DNA of 64,000 bases from Moorella glycerini (GTDB lineage: Bacteria > Bacillota > DSM-521 > Neomoorellales > Neomoorellaceae), in NCBI RefSeq assembly GCF_009735625.1, contig NZ_CP046244.1, positions 1,612,001 to 1,676,000 of the forward strand. Direction: 5' to 3'. Position numbers and translations under genes: made by a program. Below the pieces are notes generated by a model, which made no database searches, was not told where the DNA came from, and worked only from the letters and a program-made list of their open reading frames with translations. Shown piece after piece: positions 8,462 to 62,454 of the stretch. Numbering within the stretch: the first letter of the stretch is position 1; every line of letters starts with the position of its first letter.

Positions 8462-8642
8462 TTTCGAAAAAAATTTATCGCAAATAGGACTGGACAGGCA
8501 CGAGCCGATCTGAGATAATGGCCTTGGGAAAGTAGCGAGGTGAAATTTCAGATGGACGTGCCTTTTTCGATTGGCGACCGAGAGTTTACCCAGGCGGATA
8601 TCAACTTAATACGTATTACAGTAAAGGAATTTTTCCATTTAA
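8462..8642 (+). repeat. 181-bp direct repeat, right copy
   Basis: Partner of 6203-6383 with one difference. This copy continues into the complete DUF4338 gene, so the repair of the gene by duplication left it intact downstream of the IS. Confidence 0.9.
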
Positions 8643-9463
8643 GCCGTGAAGAGATCGCGGCGACCATATGCGAGAATTTGCCTTGGAAGGCCCCGAACGG
8701 ACGATTAAAGATGGAAGCCTGCAGAAAGCTGCTGGAATTAGAACAAAAAGGGGTCATTACCTTACCACCGCTGCAAAAGAATAAGGTACGCCAAGTCGGC
8801 GGGGAGCGACTGGGAACTGTGATACAGACCCGGCTTAAGGCTAAACTTCAAGAAGTGGCGCCGGTTACCATAGATCCGGTCACCCCTTTAGAGAGGGCGG
8901 ACTGGAACGCCACCATGGCGGCTTACCATCCTTTAGGGTATCTGCGGGCCATCGGGGCGCAACAGCGGTATTGGATTAGGGTAAAGGGAGTGAGAGGCCG
9001 GGAGATAGTAGGGGCGATGTTGTTTGGAGCTGCTGCCAAGGCGGTGGCGGCGCGGGATAAGTGGATTGGCTGGACAGCTGAGGAACGCCGGCGCTATCGC
9101 CCGCGTATAGTCAACAACAACCGCTTTTTGATTCTGCCGGAGGTGCACATTCCCCATCTAGCCAGCCACTCCCTTTCCCTGGTAGCGCGGCGCATTCGGG
9201 CGGACTGGCGGGAACGCTATGGTTATGAACCGGTTTTATTAGAAACCTTTGTTGAACCCGAGTATCAGGGCACCTGTTACCGGGCGGCCAACTGGATTAA
9301 AATTGGCGAAACCGCAGGTCGAGGCCGCCAGGACGCCTTTAAGCAATATGCCGTCACGGTTAAAACAATCTGGGTATATCCCCTGGTACGGGACTGGCGC
9401 CGGCGGCTGGTGGAACCCTTCCCGGAGCCTGTTGAAGAAACCCTGGACGAGGGAGGGGAATAA
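8552..9463 (+). CDS. DUF4338 (Druantia DruA-like) protein, transposon-encoded
   Basis: About 303 residues. The C-terminal two thirds show the DUF4338 pattern: NNNRFLILPEV, HLASHSLSLVARR, LLETFVEPEYQGTCYRAANW and IGETAGRGRQD. DUF4338 defines DruA of the Druantia anti-phage system; its biochemical role is not established. Here it is not next to DruB-E. It lies two bases before a DDE transposase inside matched inverted repeats, so I infer an accessory transposition role (perhaps DNA binding or target choice). Start: ATG 8552, with GAGG 11-15 bases upstream; GTG 8540 is an alternative. The first 91 bases also occur in the left 181-bp repeat. Intact. Confidence 0.85.
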   Translation: MDVPFSIGDREFTQADINLIRITVKEFFHLSREEIAATICENLPWKAPNGRLKMEACRKLLELEQKGVITLPPLQKNKVRQVGGERLGTVIQTRLKAKLQEVAPVTIDPVTPLERADWNATMAAYHPLGYLRAIGAQQRYWIRVKGVRGREIVGAMLFGAAAKAVAARDKWIGWTAEERRRYRPRIVNNNRFLILPEVHIPHLASHSLSLVARRIRADWRERYGYEPVLLETFVEPEYQGTCYRAANWIKIGETAGRGRQDAFKQYAVTVKTIWVYPLVRDWRRRLVEPFPEPVEETLDEGGE

Positions 9464-11606: not shown

Positions 11607-11636
11607 CCGCAGGAGTAAAAATTCCTGCGGTTTTTT
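11607..11636 (+). terminator. Strong terminator hairpin
   Basis: CCGCAGGA (11607-11614) pairs with TCCTGCGG (11623-11630), followed by six T. It sits at the left border of the dispersed repeat. Confidence 0.75.
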
Positions 11637-11769
11637 GGAGGGTATATATCTACCGGGTAACCACGTAGGAGTCGCGACTGGGACCCGCAAATTTACGCTC
11701 CTTCCAGACCTATCCACACAAGAACTGGACCCCGGTTGCAGGATATTCCAGGAAATCGTAGAATAATTA
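11627..11769 (+). repeat. 143-bp dispersed repeat, copy A
   Basis: From GCGGTTTTTTGGAGGG to GTAGAATAATTA; a close copy is at 13949-14091 with only a handful of substitutions. Looser similarity continues to about 11832 (AGCATAACAG, GGCTGGGGTC), matching the sequence after the IS1380-type element at 16017-16068. It contains CAGGATATTCCAGGAAATCG, but no gene. Its nature is unknown. Confidence 0.8.
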
Positions 11770-11951
11770 TCTAAAGAAGCATAACAGCTCCGCCTTAATG
11801 TCTTAATGTGGTGGCTGGGGTCCAGGTAGGTAGTGCAGCCGGATAATAACTCTATGCTGCAATGTTACTGTGGTATACTTAAATTACTGGAACTATGGGA
11901 AAGAGAATGAGGGACGAAACTGACAACGCTATTTTAGCAGGGGGGCTAAAT

Positions 11952-12331
11952 ATGGGTACCCAACCTGACGAACTGGCTGCTTATTACGCTAAAAAATACC
12001 CTTTTACTTTTACCGACGATTTTTCGCAAACTGACCCGTCCCTAACCGAACGTTATAAGCCTGGCAGGTTGCTACCAGAGCTGCAGCCATCTTAAAAGAG
12101 AGATATGGTGCCCAAAAAGTAGTAGCTTTCGGCTCCTTGCTTGATCGTTCCCGCTTTACACGCTGGTCCGATGTTGACCTGGCGGCGTGGGGCATCCCGG
12201 ACGACCAGTTTTACGCCGCAGTAGGGGTGGTGACAGGTTTAAGTGAAAAGTTTAAAGTAGACCTTGTTGACCCGGAAGCCTGCCGGGACTCTTTACGCAG
12301 TGCTATTGAAAGCGAAGGGGTCGAGCTATGA
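11952..12331 (+). pseudogene. MNT-type nucleotidyltransferase (antitoxin), frameshifted
   Basis: Homologous to the gene starting at 63787. The N-terminal frame (MGTQPDELAAYYAKKYP) breaks at about 12058: the intact copy reads TATAAGGAAGCCTGGC, this one TATAAGCCTGGC, a 4-base deletion. The rest continues in another frame with AFGSLLDRSRFTRWSDVDLA, the GS...DxD core of minimal nucleotidyltransferases, and ends ESEGVEL. In MNT/HEPN systems this protein modifies or neutralises the HEPN toxin. The stop overlaps the next start as ATGA, the usual coupling of the pair. As written, no functional protein is made. Upstream TATACT (11874-11879) may be a -10 box. Confidence 0.8.
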
Positions 12332-12818
12332 ATATGAAAAAGAAGTACCTTGCCCTGGCCGGCCGCATCCGGGATGAGCTCGCTGAAATCCAGCAGTCCG
12401 TCGACCGGGCCCGAACCGGATGGGAACGCATCAACTTTCAGGCGATGATTTTTACCTTGACAGCGTAGCTTTTAATCTTCACAGCTTTTATACGGGGTTG
12501 GAAAGGATTTTTGAACTAATTGCCGTCAATGTGGAGCAAAGTAAGCCGGAGGGACAAAACTGGCATCAGGAGCTCTTGCGCCAGATGGCGGTAGAGATTG
12601 AACTAATACGTCCCCCTGTCATCTCCAGGGAAACCAGGATCAGCCTGGATGAATACAGGGGCTTCCGTCACGTTGTGCGCAATATATATACCTTCCGTCT
12701 TTCTCCTGCCCGCATAAAGCCTTTACTGGATAACCTAGTGGAAATTTGGGAGTGCACAAAAAGGGAACTAGAAAGGTTTCTTCTTTTTCTTGAAGCAAGG
12801 AAGAACGAAAAACAGTGA
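12328..12818 (+). pseudogene. HepT-like HEPN toxin, frameshifted
   Basis: Begins ATG 12328 (MNMKKKYLALAGRIRDELAEI) and stops at TAG 12466, while the continuation lies in another frame from about 12420: SGDDFYLDSVAFNLHSFY, a central helix, then the catalytic-type motif RGFRHVVRNIYTF near the C-terminus. HEPN toxins use an Rx(4-6)H motif for RNA cleavage. The frame break is around 12420-12450. Both partners of this toxin-antitoxin pair are therefore disrupted here, which would allow the two lesions to coexist without toxicity. Confidence 0.75.
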
Positions 12819-13764: not shown

Positions 13765-14088
13765 ATGAACAGGGCCGTTTTTGTTGATGCCTCGGCTTGG
13801 ATTGCAAGTGTAAGGGTTAGCCAGATAATGGAGGAAGCCGGGCTGAAAATATTCTTTGATTACCAGGATAAGAACTGGGGAGTGGTGGACTGTATTTCTT
13901 TAGCTACTATGCGCTTACTAAACTGCCGGCGGGCTTTTGTTTTTGATGGCGGTTTTTTGGAGGGTATATATCTACCGGGTAACCACATAGGAGTCGTGAC
14001 TGAGACCCGTAAATTTACGCCCCTCCCAGACCTATCCACACAAGAACTGGACCCCGGTTGCAGGATATTCCAGGAAATCGTAGAATAA
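13765..14088 (+). pseudogene. PIN-domain toxin, internally deleted
   Basis: Starts ATG 13765 after AGAGGGGAAACA. It reads NRAVFVDASAWIA, the first PIN strand with its Asp, then jumps to the C-terminal PIN region FFDYQDKNWGVVDCISLATM and FVFDGGF, which has the third Asp. About 50-60 middle residues, including the second acidic position, are missing. From 13949 the frame runs into the 143-bp dispersed repeat. PIN toxins are Mg2+-dependent RNases; this one should be inactive. No antitoxin gene is visible. Confidence 0.7.
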
Positions 14089-15556: not shown

Positions 15557-15786
15557 ACAGAACTTCTAGCTCCAGTTAGCTGTATAAGCAGGCTCCAAGC
15601 CTCTTAGGACGAGAGGTCTACTTTGTTATTCCCTTATCCAGGGGACCCAAGGTAAGAGTAAATAGCCTTCGTCCACATAATCAACTTTAGACCCAATTCA
15701 ATGTATCAGCAGATGTTAAATATAACTGTTAATACCATTTACTGTTAGTGCGAGTTCTACCCAGTTGTTATTATCACGGATTCAGG
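15557..15786 (+). repeat. 230-bp tandem repeat, copy 1 (IS right end)
   Basis: Starts ACAGAACTTCTAGCTCC and ends ACGGATTCAGG. Followed immediately by what reads as an identical second copy. Non-coding, contains an AGCCTCTTAGGACGAGAGG-like small hairpin region. Confidence 0.9.
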
Positions 15787-16016
15787 ACAGAACTTCTAGC
15801 TCCAGTTAGCTGTATAAGCAGGCTCCAAGCCTCTTAGGACGAGAGGTCTACTTTGTTATTCCCTTATCCAGGGGACCCAAGGTAAGAGTAAATAGCCTTC
15901 GTCCACATAATCAACTTTAGACCCAATTCAATGTATCAGCAGATGTTAAATATAACTGTTAATACCATTTACTGTTAGTGCGAGTTCTACCCAGTTGTTA
16001 TTATCACGGATTCAGG
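15787..16016 (+). repeat. 230-bp tandem repeat, copy 2
   Basis: I see no difference from 15557-15786. It ends in the terminal sequence next to the target duplication. Confidence 0.9.
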
Positions 16017-16129: not shown

Positions 16130-16699
16130 TTGAAGAAAAACCTGAACAGGCTGCGCGAGAAGTAAGGACTGGTTGTGGTTCACCGTGCTGCTCCTTTTTT
16201 AGCAACCATTCTAGCCGGGTGCAGCGGCAGCCCCGGCGCTTCCTCTGCGCTGCAGCAGAGTACGGCGAGTAGTGCGAAAATAGCCGACACCCAAAATGCC
16301 ACCAATAACCAGCAGGGTTCAGAGCAACAGCCAAAAACTGATAACCCGGCCGCCGGCCCGCTCAAGGTCCTCCCGGCCGTGGTCACTAATGTGGCCGACG
16401 GCGACACCCTGCAGGTCAAAATAGGCGGCCGGGAAGAAAAAGTGAGGTTGATCGGCGTCAATACTCCCGAGATCGCCCACCCGGACCTGAGAATTAAAGA
16501 GCAGCCTTACGGCAAAGAAGCGGCGGCCTACACCCAGAAGCGGCTGGCCGGCAGGCAGGTCTACCTGGAGCTGGACACCGACCTATTCACGAAACTCCAA
16601 AGGGAGGCCCGGGAGGCGGGCAAGGGCCTCTGGAGTGCGGCCGTGACCGCACCAGCCCCGGCCTTGCGAGGTGGTGTCAAAGCGAAGCAAGAATTATAG
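16130..16699 (+). pseudogene. Staphylococcal-nuclease-like lipoprotein, broken
   Basis: The open frame from GTG 16175 reads a lipoprotein-like ATILAGCSGS, a low-complexity Ser/Gln linker and an SNc domain (VVTNVADGDTLQVKIGG, VRLIGVNTPEIAHP). The Arg and Glu equivalent to Arg35/Glu43 of the enzyme are present. The chain then jumps from LELDTDLF to KLQREAREAGKGLW: about 40 residues, including the segment with the Arg87-equivalent, are missing. Upstream, a better start (TTG 16130, KKNLNRLREK) is out of frame, and a one-base-short T run at about 16195-16200 also breaks the signal peptide. Inactive nuclease relic. Confidence 0.75.
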
Positions 16700-16745: not shown

Positions 16746-17879
16746 ATGCCTAATCCATTAAGGGAATTGGCTCCCATTTTAGAGGTTTTGGCTGAAAATA
16801 TTGATGTTCTCCCGGCGGCTGGAAAGGCAGTTGAAGATTACCTACATCCGGACCCCGAAGAGTTAGAAGACGTTTTAATAAACAATGAAGTAGGTGAAGT
16901 GACAGCTTTTGCTGAAGTACCTGAGCCCAAGTTGACCAATCTTTACCGCCCTACTCCCCCTATATTTCGCCATCAAAAACCCTTCTATCGTTATTTCATT
17001 GACGGTAGCATACGTACTTACTTTTTAGCAACCGGTATTGAAGGTACCCGTTCTTTCCCTATTGAGCTAGCTCAAGTAGGGGCAGCAGTAGTTGAGCGTA
17101 ATTATGACGGAAATGTAAAGGTGCTTGCTAGCAACCATAAAGTATTACTCTTAATTCCTAAAGGTGCCCAAGGTGTTTCAGATGCTGTATGGCAACAGCT
17201 CGAAAAAATTAAAACAGCAGATGGACTAATAGAAATTCATAACGTTGATAAAAAGCATGCGCTTAATAAAAGCGAGGAAGGGGAAGGGGACCTACGTAAT
17301 AAGGCGGGTGCAAAGGCCAGGCATCGCATGCATGAGTTAGAGATAGAGCTCATTAAAGCCACCGAAGGTTTGAGGAATGAAAGTAACTGGCTGATCCTCG
17401 ATGGGGCGGTTAAACTGGATGATTTTGTTAATAGTCCTTATCTTATTGGGGTGGCCAAGTCTTTTCGTAAAGACCCTCAGTTTTATTTTGGTCGCAAGCA
17501 TGGCCGCAATCAAGAACGCCACGATGTTACCGCAATTTTAGCGGGTCTTCCTCATGCCCATCGCACTGTGGCCTTTAGTGCTTACGGCGGCAAGGTGGCT
17601 TTTTGGTATGTTCGTTTACGAGAGCAACGGGAACTAGATTACCCTCTTATGGGAGTGGTCAAGGTTGAGTTGCCGCGTCCTCACAAGACCCCGGTGGATG
17701 CGGAACTTGCAGATCTAATATCCGGAGCTTTAGTAGCCGAGCGCAATGTTGCCCCTTACGGTCGCGATCGCCGCTGGCACTGCCACCTTTATCCCATCTT
17801 TATAGCTGAACAGGTAATTAAAAGTCGTTTTTTTTCTCAAGATGTGCTTCTGGGAGCCATTCGTTGGCCCCGGCGTTAG
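16746..17879 (+). CDS. NurA-domain nuclease-like protein
   Basis: 377 residues. The first acidic motif FIDGSIRT (Asp86), a second LILDGAVK (Asp219) followed by the LIGVAKSF strand, and the C-terminal YPIFIAEQVIKSRFFSQD resemble NurA, the Mn2+-dependent nuclease that works with the HerA translocase in archaeal end resection and in several bacterial defence systems. The start ATG 16746 has GAAGG upstream. A HerA-like ATPase begins 38 bases after the stop, which strengthens the call considerably. It is the first gene of a four-gene operon. Family by motif reading, not by a search; the sequence is divergent. Confidence 0.75.
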   Translation: MPNPLRELAPILEVLAENIDVLPAAGKAVEDYLHPDPEELEDVLINNEVGEVTAFAEVPEPKLTNLYRPTPPIFRHQKPFYRYFIDGSIRTYFLATGIEGTRSFPIELAQVGAAVVERNYDGNVKVLASNHKVLLLIPKGAQGVSDAVWQQLEKIKTADGLIEIHNVDKKHALNKSEEGEGDLRNKAGAKARHRMHELEIELIKATEGLRNESNWLILDGAVKLDDFVNSPYLIGVAKSFRKDPQFYFGRKHGRNQERHDVTAILAGLPHAHRTVAFSAYGGKVAFWYVRLREQRELDYPLMGVVKVELPRPHKTPVDAELADLISGALVAERNVAPYGRDRRWHCHLYPIFIAEQVIKSRFFSQDVLLGAIRWPRR

Positions 17880-17917
17880 GATATTTCCAAAAATACTTAA
17901 GCAAGGGGGCGACGTAA

Positions 17918-19591
17918 ATGTCTAATGATAATGATAGCCTAAATACGGCTCTATTTCCTTTAGGACGCTCTTCAGCTACCGAAAGGGAGGCCAATACTTC
18001 CGATAAATTTAGCTTTTGGCTGGCTCCAGGAGTGATTGTAAACCCCTTTGATATTGTTCAGGTAGAGCAGGTTAGTCCTGAAGCCGGGGAACCCAGTAAA
18101 ACTTATGGTTTAGTAACTCTACTGGAACACAGAACCGATGCGCCCAATCACCTGGCCAATTTTATCTCCAATAATTTTGGAGAGCTTTCCGAAGAACCCA
18201 ATACTTTGCGTCAGGGAGCCACTATAGCCAGGGTAAACGTCTTAAGCAACAATAAAGATATATATATGCCGGTGGCAAATGAGAAGCTGGTGTATTTTGC
18301 CGATCCAGGTGGTATAGAAGAAGCTTTGGGGATTACCGAGATGCCGGTGGCTGACCGGGTGCCTGCCGGCTTGATCAAAATGAGCAATGGCGCTTCTACA
18401 GTCGCCTACCTTGACAGGCGTTACATCCTGGGGCCGGAATCGGCTCATATTAACATTTCCGGTATAAGCGGACTGGCTACCAAGACCTCCTATGCCATGT
18501 TTATTATCCAGGCGCTTCTTCAGAAAGCCCCAGATCCAGAAAAGATTGCCGTAATAATCCTGAACGTAAAACAGGCCGATCTTTTGCAGATCGATAAGCC
18601 CGGCCCGCCTTTGCCGGTAGAAGAAATGGAGAAATGGGAAGCCCTGGGGTTGGAGCCTCGACCCTTTAAAAATGTTGTATATCTTCTGCCTCGTAGCGCC
18701 GAACACCCTGGTAGGCCCAACAGTTTTTATGAGCCTGATACTTATCATATCTATGCTTATGATATTGACTCTACCGCTGATAAACTAGACTTGCTTTTTA
18801 CAGATGTTTCCGATCCTACTGGTACAATGGAGGCTATTATTGGGGATATCATGCAAGGAATTGTAAATAACGAAGGGGAGTTCAGAAATGTCCACAGTTG
18901 GACCCAACTACTGAACGGTCCACCTTTGTTCCGCGACGGACAGACCCAAAGATGGGGCGACCACCATAAATCCTCTGTAGGTAAGTTCCGGCGGAATCTA
19001 CGACGGCTAGTATATACGCGGCAGTCAGGAATTTTTGTAGATGCCAGGGCCAAAAACGAGAAGGTCCTTGCCGAGGAAATCCGCAAAATTAAGGGCGGGT
19101 ATACCTATGTAGTAGATATTGCCAAGCTCTATGATAATGAACAGACCCTGGTTTTCGGGGATCTCCTGCGTACCGTCTATGAGCTAAAAGCTGAAGAGCC
19201 TGAAGACCGCACGGACCCCATTCCTGAAAAGATTATCTTTTTTGTAGACGAGTTGAATAAATATGCACCTGGTGGTTCAAGAGTTTCTCCCATCACCGAG
19301 CAGGTTCTGGATATTGCCGAGCGCGGCCGCTCCTTAGGGCTAATCCTCATTTCCGCCCAGCAGTTTATGAGTGCAGTACACAACCGCGTTACCGGCAACG
19401 CGGCTACCAAAGTTTTGGGACGTACTGGTGCGGCTGAAGTGGCCCAGCCGGATTACCGGTTCCTCGACGATGAATTAAAAATGAGCATGACCCGTCTGGG
19501 CAAGGGAGAACTATTGATCAACCATGCTGTCTATCGCCAGCCGGTGAAAATTATCTTCCCCAAGCCGGCTTATCGACAAGAACAGAAATAG
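17918..19591 (+). CDS. HerA-like ATPase with degenerate P-loop
   Basis: 557 residues. The N-terminal HAS-barrel-like region (about 35-150; GLVTLLEHRTDAPN, ARVNVLSNN, MPVANEKLVYFA) is followed by the ATPase core. The P-loop position reads NISGISGLATKTSYA: Lys189 and Thr190 are kept, but the Gly before Lys is Thr. Walker B is IIFFVDELNKYAP (Asp444, Glu445), and an arginine/sensor region ERGRSLGLILISAQQ follows. HerA forms hexameric DNA translocases that feed DNA to NurA. It lies between the NurA-like gene and the methyltransferase, with a ribosome site AAGGGGG before ATG 17918. Probable motor of a defence complex. Confidence 0.8.
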   Translation: MSNDNDSLNTALFPLGRSSATEREANTSDKFSFWLAPGVIVNPFDIVQVEQVSPEAGEPSKTYGLVTLLEHRTDAPNHLANFISNNFGELSEEPNTLRQGATIARVNVLSNNKDIYMPVANEKLVYFADPGGIEEALGITEMPVADRVPAGLIKMSNGASTVAYLDRRYILGPESAHINISGISGLATKTSYAMFIIQALLQKAPDPEKIAVIILNVKQADLLQIDKPGPPLPVEEMEKWEALGLEPRPFKNVVYLLPRSAEHPGRPNSFYEPDTYHIYAYDIDSTADKLDLLFTDVSDPTGTMEAIIGDIMQGIVNNEGEFRNVHSWTQLLNGPPLFRDGQTQRWGDHHKSSVGKFRRNLRRLVYTRQSGIFVDARAKNEKVLAEEIRKIKGGYTYVVDIAKLYDNEQTLVFGDLLRTVYELKAEEPEDRTDPIPEKIIFFVDELNKYAPGGSRVSPITEQVLDIAERGRSLGLILISAQQFMSAVHNRVTGNAATKVLGRTGAAEVAQPDYRFLDDELKMSMTRLGKGELLINHAVYRQPVKIIFPKPAYRQEQK

Positions 19592-19615
19592 ATAAAGAGG
19601 AGAGGGAGAAGATTT

Positions 19616-22600
19616 ATGTCCTTAGATATTTTAGAAACCGAGCGTATCATTAAAGAAGAAGCCCCCAGGGTAGCCGCCCTGATCAGGCAGGCCGGAATAG
19701 GGGGTAACGAAGAGCAGTTCCGGCAAAGGGTGGCCCCGGCCATTGAGGAATTTGGGCGGCGCCTGGGTCTTAATTTTCACACCGAACATGAACGTACATT
19801 ACTAAATGGCAGGGCCGATACGGTTTACAATCGATTGGTGGTGGAATATGAAAGGCCCCGCTCCCTTAATAAGAGCAATAAGACCCGGTCCAACCGTCAT
19901 GCCCTGGACCAGGTGAAGCAGTATATTGACGCGTTACACCGTCTCGAGCGACATCGGCGAGAGCGTTTGGCGGGGGTGGTACTGGACGGTACATACTATA
20001 TCTTTGCCCGTTACAAAGAGGACCGCTGGTTGGAGGACGACCCCTTACCGGTGAGCCCGGCCTCCACCGAGCGCTTCTTACGCTATCTCACTTCTTTAAG
20101 TACCGAAAAAGCGGTAACTCCTGATAAGCTGATAGATGATTTTGGCGAGAATACCGTTATTTCTCGGAAAGTGGTCAGTACTTTCTATAAGGCCGTAATC
20201 CAGAGTTATTCTTCGCGGGTAAAAGTGCTCTTTGACCAGTGGTCCCGGCAGTTCAGAGAGATCTGCGGTTATGCCGAGAATTCCTCCAAGCTGGAGATAG
20301 GAGCAGTAGCCCGCCGTTTTGGGGTCCAGAGCACTCGGGTCGAAACCCTACCCTTTTTCTTTGCCCTGCATACCTACTACGCCACTTTTATCAAGATCCT
20401 GGCCATGCAGGTGGTGACTTACTATGCTTTTCCCCGCCTTGGCACGGGGCTGGCCCAGGTAGCAAGTTTCCCTCCAGATGAACTCCTCAAGTATCTGCGC
20501 AAAAACCTGCAGGAAGGTGGCATATTCCGCGAGTTCGGCTTAAAGAATTTCCTGGAGGGGGATTTTTTCAACTGGTATTTAGATACCTGGGATGAGGCCA
20601 TAGCTTCTGCCTTGAGCAGCCTTATCGCGACCCTCGCCGATTATTCTCTCGTAACCCTGGATGTTGACCCTGAGGAAACCCGTGACCTTTTAAAAAAGCT
20701 CTACCAGCAGCTGGTGCCAGCCAGCCTGCGGCACAACCTGGGTGAGTATTACACCCCTGATTGGCTGGCCGAGAGGCTTCTAAACCAACTGGAAGCCGGG
20801 AAATTCCAGGGGGATTTAAATAAAAAGATCCTTGATCCGGCCTGTGGCTCGGGTACCTTCCTGGTTCTGGCCATCCGTAAGATGCGGGAGTACGCCCTGG
20901 AAAAAATGATCCCTGAAAGTCAGGTGCTGGAAAAGATCTTGGAAGGTGTGGTGGGCTTTGACCTTAACCCTCTGGCGGTGATTTCTGCCCGTACAAATTA
21001 TTTATTAGCCATAGGTGATCTACTGGCTCACCGGCGAGGAGAAGTAGACATCCCTGTTTACCTGGCCGACTCGATCTTAACTCCCAGTGAGGAACAGAAC
21101 CCGCTAAAATCCATGCAGCAAAATGCCGTCTCCTTTAAGGCGGCCGAGCCGGTGGGCACCTTTACCCTCCCCAAATCGCTGGTGGATGCCAGCTATGTTG
21201 ACCGGCTGACTGGCCTTCTGGAAGAGGGTGTAAGGGATAAACTATCTCTAGCGCAATTCCACCGGCGTCTATTAGCCAGTTTTCCCCTCCTGGGGGGTCA
21301 GGACGAGAGGGATATAGCCCTGGTGGAGAACCTCTACCAAAAGCTATTAGATTTAGAGGCAGGCGGCCTTAACGGCATCTGGGCAAGTATTATCAAGAAT
21401 GCCTTCCAGCCTCTTTTCCGGCAAAATTACTTTGACTATGTGGTAGGTAATCCTCCCTGGGTAAATTGGGAAAGCCTGCCGGAAGACTACCGGGCGGACA
21501 CCAAATTTCTCTGGGAGTATTATGGCCTCTTTCCCCACGGCGGCATGGATACCATCCTGGGCAAGGGCAAGAAGGATATCTCTATGTTGCTTACTTATGT
21601 GGCAATGGATCGCTACCTCAAGCCACAGGGGAAACTCGGTTTTGTGATTACTCAATCGGTATTTAAAACCTCGGGAGCCGGCCAGGGGTTCAGGCGGTTT
21701 AAGCTACCTGGAGAGGTTCCCGTACGGGTTATGTTTGTAGATGACCTTTCCGAACTACAGCCCTTTGAGGGCGCCAGCAATCGCACCAGCATTGTTATCC
21801 TGCAAAAGGGTATGCCTAACCGCTACCCGGTAGGCTATAATTACTGGCGTAAATCAGGTAGGGGTAATAGAATCTCTCCCGATCTGGACCTGGACGAAGT
21901 ACTCAGACGTGTACGGGTTATGCAGTTTGCTGCCGGGCCGGTGGCGGCCGATGATCCTACCTCAGCTTGGCTTACCGGCAGAGAAAAGGCAATAAAGGCG
22001 GTCAAAAAAATTATAGGGCTTTCGGAATACAAAGCTCATGAAGGGGTTAATTCTGGCGGGGCCAACGGCGTCTACTGGGTGGAGATTGTGGGTCGGCGGC
22101 CGGACGGCCTGGTGGTAGTGAGCAATATTACCGAGGGGACGAAGAGGGAAGTGGAGGAAGTCACGGCTGCCATCGAGCCGGACCTTCTATACCCCCTCCT
22201 GCGCGGCCGGGACGTACGTAAATGGCAGGCCAGGCCTTCGGCTTGGATAATTATGGCTCAGGACCCGGTAAGACGCCGCGGGATCCCTGAAGATGAGATG
22301 GTCGAACGTTACCCCAGGACTTACAGTTACCTAAAGCGGTTTGAGGAGGTTTTGCGAGAAAGAGCGGCTTTTAAACGTTACTTTATTCGCAAGGACCGTA
22401 ACGGGAATGTTATAGAGACAGGGCCTTTTTATTCCATGTTTGATGTAGGCGATTATACATTTAACCCGTACAAAGTGGTGTGGCCTAATATTGCTTCAAA
22501 AATAGAAGCAGCTGTTATTGATAAGCTGCTGGATGGGAAAGTATTACTGCCACAGCATATTGTGACGCTTATCGCTTGTGGTGAACCCGCGGAAGCTCAT

Positions 22601-22909
22601 TACCTTTGTGCTTTGATGAACTCCAGTACGGTCAACTTCGCCTTGCAATCATACTCAATGAAAGGTGGCAAAAGCTTTGGCGACCCACATATTTTAGAGA
22701 ACGTAGCAATTCCCATTTTTGACCCAACGAATAAGCTACACTTTACCCTTGCCTCCCTTTCACAAAAGGCCCATACTATGGTAGTAAATGGCGACAATAA
22801 GGCTCTGGCAGAGATAGAAGAAGAAATAGACCTGCTGGCAGCCCGACTTTGGGGATTGACTGAAGCCGAATTAAAAGATATTAAGGATTCCCTGGCAGAA
22901 CTCGCTTAA
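19616..22909 (+). CDS. Nuclease-like/N6-adenine DNA methyltransferase (type IIG-like)
   Basis: 1,097 residues. The N-terminus (about 35-160) resembles a restriction-endonuclease fold, with GRADTVYNRLVVEYERP (Asp68, Glu77, Glu79). The expected final Lys of PD-(D/E)xK is not seen, so cleavage activity is uncertain. The central gamma-class N6-adenine methylase has SAM motif I DPACGSGTF (Asp407), GVVGFDLNPLAV, and catalytic motif IV NPPW (Asn612). The C-terminal region (about 760-1000; GREKAIKAVKK, LLRGRDVRKW) looks like target recognition and the usual Eco57I-type tail. The start ATG 19616 has GAGGAGAGGGAGA upstream, 24 bases after the ATPase. Predicted to mark host DNA for the HerA-NurA system. 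Confidence 0.88.
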   Translation: MSLDILETERIIKEEAPRVAALIRQAGIGGNEEQFRQRVAPAIEEFGRRLGLNFHTEHERTLLNGRADTVYNRLVVEYERPRSLNKSNKTRSNRHALDQVKQYIDALHRLERHRRERLAGVVLDGTYYIFARYKEDRWLEDDPLPVSPASTERFLRYLTSLSTEKAVTPDKLIDDFGENTVISRKVVSTFYKAVIQSYSSRVKVLFDQWSRQFREICGYAENSSKLEIGAVARRFGVQSTRVETLPFFFALHTYYATFIKILAMQVVTYYAFPRLGTGLAQVASFPPDELLKYLRKNLQEGGIFREFGLKNFLEGDFFNWYLDTWDEAIASALSSLIATLADYSLVTLDVDPEETRDLLKKLYQQLVPASLRHNLGEYYTPDWLAERLLNQLEAGKFQGDLNKKILDPACGSGTFLVLAIRKMREYALEKMIPESQVLEKILEGVVGFDLNPLAVISARTNYLLAIGDLLAHRRGEVDIPVYLADSILTPSEEQNPLKSMQQNAVSFKAAEPVGTFTLPKSLVDASYVDRLTGLLEEGVRDKLSLAQFHRRLLASFPLLGGQDERDIALVENLYQKLLDLEAGGLNGIWASIIKNAFQPLFRQNYFDYVVGNPPWVNWESLPEDYRADTKFLWEYYGLFPHGGMDTILGKGKKDISMLLTYVAMDRYLKPQGKLGFVITQSVFKTSGAGQGFRRFKLPGEVPVRVMFVDDLSELQPFEGASNRTSIVILQKGMPNRYPVGYNYWRKSGRGNRISPDLDLDEVLRRVRVMQFAAGPVAADDPTSAWLTGREKAIKAVKKIIGLSEYKAHEGVNSGGANGVYWVEIVGRRPDGLVVVSNITEGTKREVEEVTAAIEPDLLYPLLRGRDVRKWQARPSAWIIMAQDPVRRRGIPEDEMVERYPRTYSYLKRFEEVLRERAAFKRYFIRKDRNGNVIETGPFYSMFDVGDYTFNPYKVVWPNIASKIEAAVIDKLLDGKVLLPQHIVTLIACGEPAEAHYLCALMNSSTVNFALQSYSMKGGKSFGDPHILENVAIPIFDPTNKLHFTLASLSQKAHTMVVNGDNKALAEIEEEIDLLAARLWGLTEAELKDIKDSLAELA

Positions 22910-22935
22910 GCTTTGGTTAACCCAATTACTATGCT

Positions 22936-23838
22936 TTGTATGCAGGGAGAGGATTAGAAACGATCACCGCAAGAAAGCGATTCAGGCTCTACATTGACGA
23001 GTCCGGGGATCACTCGTATGGGAGAAAAGAGCAACAAAATTTAACTATTACAATGAAAAATAAAGAGTTAGCGTTTTCTATTGATTATTACCCGGAACTA
23101 AAAGAAATTCAAAAAAGATATTTAGGGTTGCTTGGTTGTATTGTAGAATATGAGGCATACCGTACCTCTTTTTACCCGTCCCTGGAGGCCTTAAAGCAAA
23201 AGCATTTTCCGCATAGTCCAGATGACCCTATAATTCTTCACCGTAAGGAGTTAGTCAATAAAGAAGGGCCATTTTGGCGGCTGCGGCAACCGGAAAAGGA
23301 AGAACAGTTTAATAACGACTTACTCACCTTCCTTCAAGAGCAGCGTTATGTGTTAATTGTGGTTGTAATTGACAAAAAGTCCCATATAGAGCGTTATGGC
23401 AATGCCGCCTATCATCCCTACCATTATTGCATGGCGGCAATGCTTGAGCGCTACTGTGGTTTCTTAAATTTTTATAATGCCCAGGGAGATGTTTTGGCGG
23501 AAAGCCGGGGAAAAACAGAGGATCAGGAACTAAGGAAAGCTTATCAATATCTTTATAACTCCGGGACACAGTTTAGGGATGCAACCTTTTTCCAAAAGAC
23601 TTTAACGAGTAAAGAAATCAAACTCAAACCAAAAACTGCTAATATTGCCGGGTTGCAGGTTGCTGATATTTTGGCCTACCCTTTAAAGCAGCAAATATTG
23701 TTGGAAAATGGCAGAATTGAGCCAGAGGTTTTCAGGGGCAAATTTGGAGAGCAAATAGTAGCTACAGTGGAAAATAAGCTTAATCGCCACCATTATTCCG
23801 GAAAGATCGAGGGATATGGTAAAGTGTTTTTAAAATAA
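22936..23838 (+). CDS. DUF3800 protein
   Basis: 300 residues. The RNase H-like DUF3800 signatures are present: LYIDESGDH (Asp21, Glu22, Asp25) at the N-terminus and LQVADILAYPLKQ near the C-terminus. DUF3800 proteins are frequent in defence islands; a nuclease role is presumed from the fold and acidic residues, not proven. It begins 27 bases after the methyltransferase, so it belongs to the same operon. The start is doubtful: TTG 22936 is the only standard codon in frame near the GGGAGAGG site, and that site lies inside the frame; a non-standard start near 22957-22966 is possible. Confidence 0.82.
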   Translation: MYAGRGLETITARKRFRLYIDESGDHSYGRKEQQNLTITMKNKELAFSIDYYPELKEIQKRYLGLLGCIVEYEAYRTSFYPSLEALKQKHFPHSPDDPIILHRKELVNKEGPFWRLRQPEKEEQFNNDLLTFLQEQRYVLIVVVIDKKSHIERYGNAAYHPYHYCMAAMLERYCGFLNFYNAQGDVLAESRGKTEDQELRKAYQYLYNSGTQFRDATFFQKTLTSKEIKLKPKTANIAGLQVADILAYPLKQQILLENGRIEPEVFRGKFGEQIVATVENKLNRHHYSGKIEGYGKVFLK

Positions 23839-24003
23839 AAATGAAAAGCCGGGCCATTTGGCCGCAGCTCTCCACGCTGGCCCCCTTCCCGGGCCATCCA
23901 CCTCCAGACTTATCTGGATTACTATAATCATAACATATCAGGTGTATGCTTGCAAGAAGAAGTTTAATTTTGGATAAATTTACTTGTGAAATGGTGACGC
24001 AAA

Positions 24004-25524
24004 ATGGGCATCGTTGTAATCAATAGAAATTTTTCCTTAAACTCCCTTCACGGATTTCCCCATGAAAAAACAGCCCTGTTGATCAACCCTCCCGTTTATG
24101 ATACCCAATACTGGTCGGAGTGGTCACAACCAGCAGGTCTTTTGCGTATTGGGGCTTGGCTAAAAAAATGCGGTTATAAGCGGGTTGAGCTTTTTGATTT
24201 CTTGGAAACGGATGCCGAACGAAAAGTTCCCCGACATCGTATTAACCCCGAGGAGAAGTACGATTTACCAGGTAAGGAACCCAATTCGCCTATTAAGCCA
24301 ATAGTAATTAGCAAAGATGGGGAAGAGCTACGTTTATATAAATATCATTTTGGCAAAACCTGGCGGGAATTTGAAATCTGGATGGATGGCCAGGGATTTA
24401 CTGCTCAAAACCCCCCTGATGAGATCTGGATTTCGGCCATTATGACTTATTGGTGGGAGGCTGTACGGGATCTTATAGCCAGACTCAAATACCGTTTTGA
24501 CCGCAAGACTACCGTAATTTTAGGGGGAGTTTACCCTACCCTTGTTCCTGAGCACGCAGCTACCATGACTCAGGCAGATATTATTGTAGTAGGTGAGGTA
24601 GCCGAGGCCAGTGATATGTGGACGGATCTTTCGCTCTATCCCAAACCTCCTAATTATGCAATTATTACTCCTAACCGGGGGTGTATTTACAACTGTAGTT
24701 ATTGCGCCCAGCGCACCCTTAACGGTGGGCACCGCCAGGTACGCCAGCGCCCGCCGGAAGACGTAGTGAAGGAGATGTATTTTAAGTACGAGAGTTACGG
24801 TATCCGGGAGTTCGCCTTTTATGCCGATGCTTTGCTGCACGATTATGAAAACGGGTTTCAACGCATTTTAGAAATCCTAATTGAAAGAAAAGCGCCTTTT
24901 CGCCTTCATGCTCCTGAGGGATTAGATGTAAGAGCTTTAAGCCAATCTCAGCGTCTTTTGGAGCTCATGAAAGCAGCCCATATGGAAAAGATCTATCTTC
25001 CTTTAGAAAGTATCGCCCAAACCCAACTTACCAGACTGGGCCGGAGACATGTTACTCTGGAGCATTTCGTAAAGGCGGCCAAGATGGCTGAGAGGGCGGG
25101 GTTTAGGTTAAGGAACTTAGAGGTTAATGCCTTTGTACTCTACGGTCTTCCGGAAGAAAAAATTGAAGAGGTAGTTCAGACCATTATCTTCGTTTCTGAA
25201 GTTGTGGGTTCGATTATACCCATGCTTTTCGCCCCAGTTCCAGGGACAAAAATTTATAATACCTACCTCTCCTATATTACCGAGCGGGGCTGGGATAAGA
25301 ACTTACATATGCTTAATGGCAAGCTCTACCCTTTTTTAGAACTCAACGAAGGTACGTTATCTGATTATATAGACCTCCAACGTTTGATGTTTACCCTTAA
25401 TACCCATTACCGTAGCAAATCTTTTCAGCTTTTCGGGCCAACAAAGGTAAGTAAAACCTTTCGGGAACTCCTGAATAGCGATGTTGGTGAGTTAATAAAG
25501 GAGTATAAGGAAGTTGATGTTTGA
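24004..25524 (+). CDS. B12-binding-domain radical SAM protein
   Basis: 506 residues. The N-terminal Rossmann-like cobalamin-binding-type domain (about 25-215; LLINPPVYDTQYWSEW, GLLRIGAWLKKCGY, VILGGVYPTLVPEHA) lacks the DxHxxG base-off motif, as is common in this class. The radical SAM core has Cys227-x3-Cys231-x2-Cys234 (NRGCIYNCSYCAQ) and the later segment FVLYGLPEEKIEEV. The class includes methyltransferases and other radical enzymes; the substrate here is unknown. It begins 165 bases after the DUF3800 gene in the same direction with no clear terminator between, so it may be an extra component of the defence cassette or simply a neighbour. GGTGACGCAAA precedes ATG 24004. Confidence 0.85.
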   Translation: MGIVVINRNFSLNSLHGFPHEKTALLINPPVYDTQYWSEWSQPAGLLRIGAWLKKCGYKRVELFDFLETDAERKVPRHRINPEEKYDLPGKEPNSPIKPIVISKDGEELRLYKYHFGKTWREFEIWMDGQGFTAQNPPDEIWISAIMTYWWEAVRDLIARLKYRFDRKTTVILGGVYPTLVPEHAATMTQADIIVVGEVAEASDMWTDLSLYPKPPNYAIITPNRGCIYNCSYCAQRTLNGGHRQVRQRPPEDVVKEMYFKYESYGIREFAFYADALLHDYENGFQRILEILIERKAPFRLHAPEGLDVRALSQSQRLLELMKAAHMEKIYLPLESIAQTQLTRLGRRHVTLEHFVKAAKMAERAGFRLRNLEVNAFVLYGLPEEKIEEVVQTIIFVSEVVGSIIPMLFAPVPGTKIYNTYLSYITERGWDKNLHMLNGKLYPFLELNEGTLSDYIDLQRLMFTLNTHYRSKSFQLFGPTKVSKTFRELLNSDVGELIKEYKEVDV

Positions 25525-25917: not shown

Positions 25918-26043
25918 ATGCTGAAGGAGATCATCGCGCAGGTTGAGGAAGCCCGGGTCGGGCGTGCGGTGGCGGGCCTTATGTCGGCGGGCTACCGCTT
26001 TCAGGTAGTGCAGCCGGTGGATAATAATAATTTCATGCTATAA
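25918..26043 (+). CDS. Small hypothetical protein (41 aa)
   Basis: ATG 25918 with GGGAGG nine bases upstream encodes LKEIIAQVEEARVGRAVAGLM and a short tail. The helical, coding-like N-terminus could be the start of a gene cut off at about 25995, because from there the DNA matches the region upstream of the MNT genes (GTGCAGCCGG.GGATAATAA) at 11833 and 63670. Not recognised; may be a relic. Confidence 0.35.
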   Translation: MLKEIIAQVEEARVGRAVAGLMSAGYRFQVVQPVDNNNFML

Positions 26044-26072
26044 TGGCTATTGAAAGCGAAGGGGTCGAGGTC
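26000..26072 (+). pseudogene. Scrap of an MNT nucleotidyltransferase locus
   Basis: The promoter-like part (GGATAATAATAATTT) is joined directly to GCTATTGAAAGCGAAGGGG, identical to the last codons of the MNT gene at 12302-12325. The whole body of the gene is deleted. It is a third trace of this locus in the window. Confidence 0.6.
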
Positions 26073-26118: not shown

Positions 26119-26215
26119 TTTAATCTCACTTTATGAGACAATCGTCCATAAAACGGAGAGGAAGCGGCGAGGATGTGGAGAGGGCCTGGAGAGGCAGATT
26201 AAGTTATATTAAACC
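26119..26215 (+). repeat. Intergenic repeat, copy 1
   Basis: TTTAATCTCACTTTATGAGA through AACGGAGAGGAAGCGG to GATTAAGTTATATTAAA. It is clearly related, though diverged, to 42840-42942. No gene. The remainder of the non-coding stretch to 26398 holds a tiny frame ATG 26304-TAG 26318 with a perfect AAAGGAGGAGAT ribosome site. Confidence 0.55.
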
Positions 26216-26372
26216 CGAACCATCTTCTTAGGTATTTCTTAAGGTGTTCTCATATATTTTAATAAGAGACGGTTATAGTATAAGCTGAAAGGAGGAGATC
26301 GAGATGGAAAATGTGTAGTTACATAAGCCTTGCCTTACCTACTTTATGAAATTAAAAGTGAGGAGATGGAAT

Positions 26373-60484: not shown

Positions 60485-60726
60485 AAAGGGTTGAAGGAAA
60501 TAATAAGGAACCCTACCCTGAACCTGTCCCGGATGTTTAATTATTATCCAGGTTCGTTGTCCGGGCGGCCCTCTCCCTGGCGGCCGATGTTCTAATGATC
60601 TTACCCGTCTTTATTCTGGCAGCCCGCTGATGACTACACAGAATAGCTCGTTTATTCAGCAGGGTAATAGGTATGGGAGAGACACCTGGGTATGAGGAAA
60701 AAGTCTTTTTAATGGAGTGGTTACAT

Positions 60727-62454
60727 ATGGCCTTTCAAACCGCAATTACCGTGATGGAGGCGGTAAAGAGAATAATTGACCGCAGCTACCTTCTGCCGGC
60801 TATTCAGAGGGAATTTGTTTGGAGTGAAGAGCAGATCGAGCGCCTTTTTGATTCCATCATGCGGGGTTACCCCATTGGCTCCTTTCTCTTCTGGAAGGTT
60901 TCGCGCGAGAACCTCAAAAACTACCAGTTTTACGAGTTCATTAAAGACTACCACCAGCTGAAGTCCCATAACCAAAAGGCCACCCTTATGGGTGATGAAA
61001 ACATCACCGCTATCCTGGATGGGCAGCAGCGGTTAACCGCTTTGTACATTGGCCTCAAAGGCAGCTATGCCTCCAAAGTCCCTTATATGCATTGGGATAA
61101 CCCCCAGGCATTTCCCCGGAAAAAACTGTACCTGAACCTGTTGGATGAACTCGGCGCGGAAGAGGAAATGCTCTACCGGTTCAAGTTCCTCACCCAAGAA
61201 AAAGCGCAGGAAAGAAGTAAACACAGCTACTGGTTCCCCGTGGGCAAGATCTTAGAATTTAATCCAGACAATCCCTTTGAACTGCACAAATATCTTCTGG
61301 AGAACAACCTGACGGCCGAATATGCGGGAAGGTGTTTGTTCCGGCTCAATGAGGTGATTACCAAAAACGCCATTATCAGCTACTACCTGGAGGAAGGCCA
61401 GGAGCTCGACCGGGTGCTGAACATCTTTATCCGTGTCAATAGCGGCGGCACCCAGCTCAGCTATTCCGACCTTTTACTGTCAATTGCTACGGCCCAGTGG
61501 GAGAACCGCGATGCCCGGGAGGAGATCACCAACCTGGTGGATGAGATTAACCGCCTGGGCAGCGGCTTCACTTTTGATAAAGACTTTGTGCTCAAGACCT
61601 GTTTGGTCTTGTGTGACAAGGATATCAAGTTCAAAGTAGATAACTTTAACGCCCGGAACATGCGCGATATCGAGAACCAGTGGGATAAGATCAGGGAAAC
61701 CATCTTAACCACGGTGGAGCTGGTGGCCGGCTTTGGTTTCAATTACCAGACCCTCACCTCCCACAATGCCATCATCCCCATTTGCTATTATCTTTTTCAA
61801 GGGGGCAACGCCCGCGATGTTTTAGTTTCGCCCAGGTATGCCGGCGAACGGGAAACTATGCGCAAGTGGCTGCATCTAGTGCTTTTGAAGCAGACCTTCG
61901 GCGGCCAATCCGATGAGGTACTGCGGATCATTCGGGAAGTTATCAAGAACCATCACGTTAGTTTCCCGGCAGACGAGATAAAGGCGCGGCTCAAGGGAAC
62001 TATAAAAGCCCTGGAGTTGACCGACGAGGAAATCGACAATCTTCTGGAGAACCAATATGGTAAAAAATATACTTTTTCGGTGCTGGCCCTATTGTATCCC
62101 AGCCTGAATTACCGCTACAGCTTCCATCAGGACCACATTCATCCCCGCAGTCTCTGTTCCAACCGCGATAAACTGAGAAGGGCCGGGATACCCGATAACG
62201 AAATAGATTTCATCCTGCAGAACTACAACAAAATACCCAACCTGCAGCTTTTAGAAGGGGCTGAGAACATTAGTAAAAAAGACCGGCCCTTTGCGGAATG
62301 GCTGGAGAAGACTTACCCGGATGCAGTCGCCCGGGAACAGTTTAAAGAGAGGCACTTCCTGACCGGTCTAGACCTTTCCTTGAATAACTTTAGAAGTTTT
62401 TACGAAAACCGTAAAAAGGCCCTCAAGAATGCCTTGAAGCAGATGGTGTTATGA
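60727..62454 (+). CDS. DUF262/DUF1524-type (GmrSD-like) nuclease protein
   Basis: 575 residues from ATG 60727 (AATGGAGTGG upstream); a longer frame from 60673 has no site. The N-terminal ParB/DUF262 domain has YLLPAIQREFVWSEEQIERL, FDSIMRGYPIGSFLFW and ILDGQQRLTALY (Asp98, the NTP-binding/hydrolysing motif). Near the C-terminus YSFHQDHIHPRSL (His467, Asp469, His470, His472) with later NKIPNLQLLEG is an HNH/DUF1524 nuclease motif. GmrSD cuts modified phage DNA; many single-chain relatives are defence genes. Substrate not known. Intact. Confidence 0.87.
   Translation: MAFQTAITVMEAVKRIIDRSYLLPAIQREFVWSEEQIERLFDSIMRGYPIGSFLFWKVSRENLKNYQFYEFIKDYHQLKSHNQKATLMGDENITAILDGQQRLTALYIGLKGSYASKVPYMHWDNPQAFPRKKLYLNLLDELGAEEEMLYRFKFLTQEKAQERSKHSYWFPVGKILEFNPDNPFELHKYLLENNLTAEYAGRCLFRLNEVITKNAIISYYLEEGQELDRVLNIFIRVNSGGTQLSYSDLLLSIATAQWENRDAREEITNLVDEINRLGSGFTFDKDFVLKTCLVLCDKDIKFKVDNFNARNMRDIENQWDKIRETILTTVELVAGFGFNYQTLTSHNAIIPICYYLFQGGNARDVLVSPRYAGERETMRKWLHLVLLKQTFGGQSDEVLRIIREVIKNHHVSFPADEIKARLKGTIKALELTDEEIDNLLENQYGKKYTFSVLALLYPSLNYRYSFHQDHIHPRSLCSNRDKLRRAGIPDNEIDFILQNYNKIPNLQLLEGAENISKKDRPFAEWLEKTYPDAVAREQFKERHFLTGLDLSLNNFRSFYENRKKALKNALKQMVL

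Follow-up and report, generated by a model that had tools for sequence, protein, structure and literature searches.

Moorella glycerini carries an operon in which genes for a NurA-like nuclease, a HerA-family ATPase and a type IIG restriction enzyme are followed by a DUF3800 gene and a gene for a B12-binding-type radical SAM enzyme, and this arrangement recurs in three phyla, though not always with the DUF3800 gene. What is new is the radical SAM gene; the core of type IIG enzyme, NurA and HerA is already known. We consider that the operon may well be a horizontally acquired restriction-and-translocation module that is sister to the tdtA operon of Thermus. The five genes occupy positions 16746-25524 of the window, by which we mean the whole 64,000-nucleotide stretch of DNA that was analysed:

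16746..17879, + strand: NurA-like nuclease, 377 aa (13-row profile match, invariant acidic residues)
17918..19591, + strand: HerA-family DNA-pumping ATPase, 557 aa (profile match, Walker motifs)
19616..22909, + strand: type IIG restriction endonuclease-adenine methyltransferase, 1,097 aa (PADLOC PDLC03630, motifs)
22936..23838, + strand: DUF3800 protein, 300 aa, TTG start uncertain (PF12686, E 2e-10)
24004..25524, + strand: B12-binding-type radical SAM enzyme, 506 aa (PF04055, E 2e-18)

All five open reading frames are intact and run in the same direction, with successive gaps of 38, 24, 26 and 165 nt, a spacing from which we infer that they form one operon and are co-transcribed. The G+C content is 47% in the operon and 53-55% in its surroundings, and no Rfam elements were found within it. 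The gene families and common direction proposed in the first-pass annotation agree with the intact reading frames and with the profile and HMM matches, although NurA was weak in single-sequence Pfam (E 0.2) and was reached by profile. The annotation had also said that it knew of no named system with this combination. This stands in that neither PADLOC nor NCBIfam returned a complete named system for the operon proteins and no single PADLOC system accounts for all of them; it does not stand for the core, which is that of the tdtA operon in the Thermus element ICEth1.

The 13-row NurA profile matched Deinococcus radiodurans NurA in the PDB (7f6d_H, E 4e-5), and residues D86, E199 and D219 are invariant in 13 relatives that span three operon layouts. 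HerA matched D. radiodurans HerA (7f6d_B) at 1.6e-39 as a single sequence and at 1.6e-67 as a profile, and both window proteins thus match this one solved complex. Walker A and B motifs are present in HerA, as are the acidic residues in NurA; the P-loop has the unusual variant form GISG-ATKTSY that is common to window HerA and Deinococcus HerA, and Walker B (FVDELNKYAP) and the RGRSLG...SAQQF region are conserved. In contrast to HerA-NurA of Deinococcus and archaea, the window operon has no adjacent Mre11 or Rad50 gene, and its HerA lies in a clade of its own outside the repair clade.

As a comparison, HerA-NurA from Thermococcus digests DNA from its ends, circular dsDNA is not cut by NurA, and an antiviral role is favoured by the authors of that study (PMC12977600). 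HerA-nuclease pairs are known defences (PMC11291478). DUF4297-HerA (PMC11291478) and Sir2-HerA (cited in PMC12977600) likewise join a HerA hexamer to an effector nuclease, but these are two-gene systems with a nuclease other than that of the window operon and with neither a DNA methylase nor a radical SAM enzyme. MADS, BREX, Dnd and BRC HerA-capture have a methylase and/or a HerA translocase in common with the operon, but the texts on them (PMC10853773, PMC12839542) name neither NurA nor radical SAM as a partner. The best PADLOC match of window HerA was mad8 (E 8e-8). From the mad1-mad8 set, only weak mad8 and mad2 matches were obtained, from HerA and the methyltransferase, and no match was obtained to the rest of the MADS and BREX proteins.

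The 1,097-aa protein is a full-length type IIG restriction endonuclease-methyltransferase (PADLOC PDLC03630, 1268 bits). It has the nuclease motif D68-x8-E77-x-E79, methyltransferase motif I (DPACGSGTF) at 407 and motif IV (NPPW) at 612, with a weak TaqI_C match at residues 911-1020. TspDTI has D66/E75/E77 and NPPW626, a pattern common to Tth111II and TsoI (PMC3384240). Compared by published motifs, the window enzyme resembles the TspDTI/Tth111II type IIG (IIC) subfamily in the same D-x8-E-x-E, in comparable distances between nuclease, motif I and NPPW and in a size of approximately 1,100 aa.

HerA searches covered three phyla, the window's own class, one GTDB contig scan and one IMG/VR scan; weaker HerA matches in the Hakubella phylum (E about 1e-85) lie outside the layout survey. 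Three layouts were found. The first, T1, has the order NurA-HerA-IIG-[accessory]-radical SAM and spans three phyla. Besides the window it includes six relatives: Desulfovirgula (L031), a further Clostridia genome (L032), two Chloroflexota loci (L034 and L069), Hakubella (L036) and L033. In L034 the IIG gene is split into two frames, and L033 ends inside IIG at a contig end. The nuclease D-EXE and methyltransferase motifs are conserved across all T1 members aligned. The neighbourhood check came out in favour of the first-pass annotation: other genomes share the gene arrangement, so it is not a product of chance. An SNase fragment at 16175-16699 was considered as a further operon member and rejected, since it is absent upstream of other T1 operons.

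The second layout, T2, is that of Thermus (IIG-NurA-HerA-PF01555 methylase) and was found at seven loci; L070 is without the methylase and L067 is cut. L053, which comes from the window's own genus and is one of the seven, has the order IIG-NurA-TdtA-PF01555. The third, T3, has the order NurA-HerA-GHKL ATPase-B12 radical SAM and was found at eight loci (L042, L043, L044, L063-L066 and L071), four of them in IMG/VR contigs. The T3 operon yielded no DNA methylase. T2 and T3 operons are both present in IMG/VR contigs, and three of the T3 ones are near integrases. The distribution is patchy, with the operon carried by two of the 11 genomes covered from the window's genus, in two different layouts. 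T3 proteins of L042 and L044 matched no PADLOC system and gave only weak HerA matches, and a PDC-S06 candidate lies downstream of the T3 operon at L066.

The first-pass annotation had offered the radical SAM gene as a possible partner. It belongs to the operon more firmly than DUF3800 does: it is the last gene in each of the six T1 operons whose 3' end can be read, that of the window among them. DUF3800 is intact in L032, is reduced to a 67-aa remnant in L031 and was not found in L034, L036 or L069. We conclude that the operon is distinguished above all by its radical SAM gene, and we count DUF3800 as an optional accessory. A DUF3800 gene also stands behind the T3 operon L063, and the family may therefore have been recruited repeatedly. 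The window DUF3800 protein had no sequence match in the PDB.

The operon of T. thermophilus HB27 ICEth1 (TTC1877-1880) encodes Tth111II (1106 aa), a NurA-like protein (377 aa), TdtA (568 aa) and a PF01555 methylase (410 aa), which are co-transcribed (PMC5365140). DNA donation requires TdtA and falls by 3-5 orders when NurA or Tth111II is knocked out (PMC5365140); the PF01555 methylase is reported to have minor effects only (PMC7767461). The window has the same contiguous core of type IIG, NurA-like and HerA/FtsK-family genes, with products of similar size, a likeness that for T1 and T2 is one of published gene order, sizes and motifs rather than of sequence identity. The Thermus order is not that of the window: in T1 the IIG gene comes after HerA instead of first, there is no PF01555 methylase, and a radical SAM gene is present instead, which may be accompanied by DUF3800 or other accessories. 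The HB27 plasmid pTT27 gave no match, and no Thermus HerA match was obtained in the plasmid collection. Where the 3' end of a T1 locus can be read (six loci), the PF01555 methylase is absent, and every T2 locus is without the radical SAM gene; as judged from gene content, the radical SAM gene fills the place of the T2 methylase.

The radical SAM domain of the window enzyme has its CxxxCxxC motif at C227/C231/C234, and these cysteines are invariant in relatives. The B12-binding Pfam match (27.0 bits) is below the cut-off of 32.1, and the protein falls below every NCBIfam cut-off. The best matches of an AlphaFold model of the T1 enzyme were MgmA (Z 15.9, 239 residues, 3.5 Å) and TsrM (Z 15.8), with MiaB close behind; the model has a mean pLDDT of 59 and its N-terminal half is of low confidence. 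The T3 model matched TsrM with Z 11.7. MgmA and TsrM are cobalamin-dependent radical SAM methylases, and the fold matches come with 16-18% identity to the window enzyme. We therefore regard the enzyme as putatively cobalamin-dependent, a reading tempered by the low-confidence N-terminal model. The T1 and T3 profiles are related with E 1.4e-10 over 103 columns, a region that includes motifs common to B12-type radical SAM enzymes, in which they are widespread; the match may therefore reflect these motifs rather than a shared origin as operon partners.

Members of this radical SAM family (E<=1e-50) were found in six of 649 genomes (299 Bacillota and 350 Chloroflexota), almost exclusively in the neighbourhood of this module. 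HerA of the present type occurs in five of these six genomes; in G441 it lies on a different short contig. This co-occurrence has a Fisher p of 3e-8, counted on genomes, among which related ones are not independent. In the sixth genome, G327, NurA is directly followed by radical SAM without HerA or IIG (L103:1419-4124). The NurA in question is shortened and without the invariant W, and the pair is either a remnant or a minimal pair. No radical SAM relatives were confirmed in IMG/VR. In the literature searched there was no description of a radical SAM partner in restriction or transfer systems, and HerA, NurA and radical SAM appeared together only in work on DHH proteins in Deinococcus.

A HerA tree of 30 rows, a small sample with two outgroup rows on long branches, placed T2 and T3 each on one side of a branch (support 93/97 and 100/99). 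T1 was not resolved as one clade, but its monophyly was not rejected (p-AU 0.48). HerA of the repair type, accompanied by Mre11-Rad50, fell outside T1-T3 (support 100/98). Across phyla, layout in this tree goes with HerA kinship, an argument for modules that would travel as units.

In the T1 relative G285 the operon is near an integrase at the 3' end of tRNA-Pro. An exact 48-bp copy of this tRNA end is present on another contig, where no tRNA was called, and is oriented as an attachment site would be. This apparent mobile-element setting resembles that of ICEth1. Among the neighbouring genes tested in the window there was no integrase or transfer gene, only transposases and remnants, and no second copy of the nearby tRNA-Val end was found in the window. 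An identical 24-bp piece at 12302 and 26046 occurs nowhere else in its own genome. We rejected this repeat as a pair of attachment sites because copy 1 ends an MNT-type antitoxin gene and copy 2 can be read as a fragment of the same kind.

Other features of the surroundings were also recorded. MNT/HepT-type toxin-antitoxin genes and fragments flank the operon (11627-12818 and 25920-26069). Two identical tandem 230-bp copies (15557-16016) directly follow an IS transposase, and 23-nt inverted repeats at 14085 and 16001 may be IS ends. A DruA-family (PF14236) protein between transposases (8540-9463) had no PADLOC match at 1e-5 and is probably transposon-borne. A sequence of approximately 100 bp at 26119-26217 is an undescribed dispersed repeat without an Rfam match, with many copies of 74-87% identity across genomes of the genus. 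The DUF262-type neighbour of the first-pass annotation is real: it is a candidate defence gene with a PADLOC HEC-05 match of 788 bits at 60673-62454, 35 kb from the operon.

From the gene content, the intact catalytic motifs, their conservation and the phylogeny, we infer the following biochemical steps and a restriction output. The type IIG enzyme would methylate its site in host DNA and cut or nick unmethylated DNA. HerA, as a hexameric dsDNA pump, would load with NurA on the ends made by IIG and degrade the DNA, so that incoming DNA would be restricted. The B12 radical SAM enzyme would be an obligatory partner that modifies a component or DNA, in place of the second methylase of T2, and DUF3800 would be an add-on nuclease-like module. 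HerA-NurA acts from ends and NurA spares circular dsDNA, and a partner that makes ends therefore fits. The proposal of the first-pass annotation, that the methylase marks self and HerA-NurA degrades unmarked DNA, is plausible because the IIG motifs are intact and HerA-NurA needs ends, which IIG would make. Taken alone, the cut-then-pump core is probably correct. For the complete scheme with restriction as its outcome we see a case of roughly equal weight on either side: HerA-NurA enzymology, cargo-like settings near integrases and the absence of transfer genes beside the window operon speak for it, and patchy distribution, low G+C and occurrence in IMG/VR support the restriction-and-translocation reading. 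Against it, the sole genetic evidence from a related operon points to DNA donation and not to restriction (PMC5365140), no PADLOC system spans all five proteins, and IIG could restrict alone.

It is possible, though we favour it less, that the operon serves DNA export. As an operon of an integrative element, it would act through IIG nicks or cuts at many points of the host chromosome, with NurA trimming the ends and HerA pumping DNA to recipients. This would accord with Thermus, where donation is abolished by loss of TdtA and the same core genes have similar sizes (TTC1877 1106 aa, TTC1878 377, TTC1879 568), and with G285, whose integrase at tRNA-Pro and 48-bp copy recall the 47-bp repeats of ICEth1 at a tRNA; low G+C is likewise a property of ICEth1. 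However, the window operon has neither an integrase nor a transfer gene beside it, there is no second tRNA-Val end copy, the T1 HerA clade differs from that of T2, and T1 is without the methylase. A third explanation, that a plain IIG restriction system adjoins HerA-NurA genes for repair and a metabolic radical SAM gene unrelated to it, without forming a joint system, is very unlikely: HerA-NurA is best known from repair and the same search recovered canonical HerA-Mre11-Rad50 loci, but the T1-T3 HerA clades are apart from repair HerA, the gene set is kept together in three phyla, and five of the six radical SAM carrier genomes also have this HerA.

The B12 radical SAM enzyme might be a second DNA modifier that makes a C-linked methyl or other radical-made DNA mark and does the job of the PF01555 methylase. 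We regard this as speculative and unlikely. If it were true, the T3 GHKL layout would use radical chemistry as its only self-mark, and a radical SAM enzyme that modifies DNA would represent a new chemistry of epigenetic marking. The operon described here connects the DNA-donation operon, so far little studied, with a broader family that has three layouts and spans at least three phyla, and it makes testable the standing question of whether operons of HerA-NurA and type IIG enzymes are restriction systems, DNA exporters, or both.
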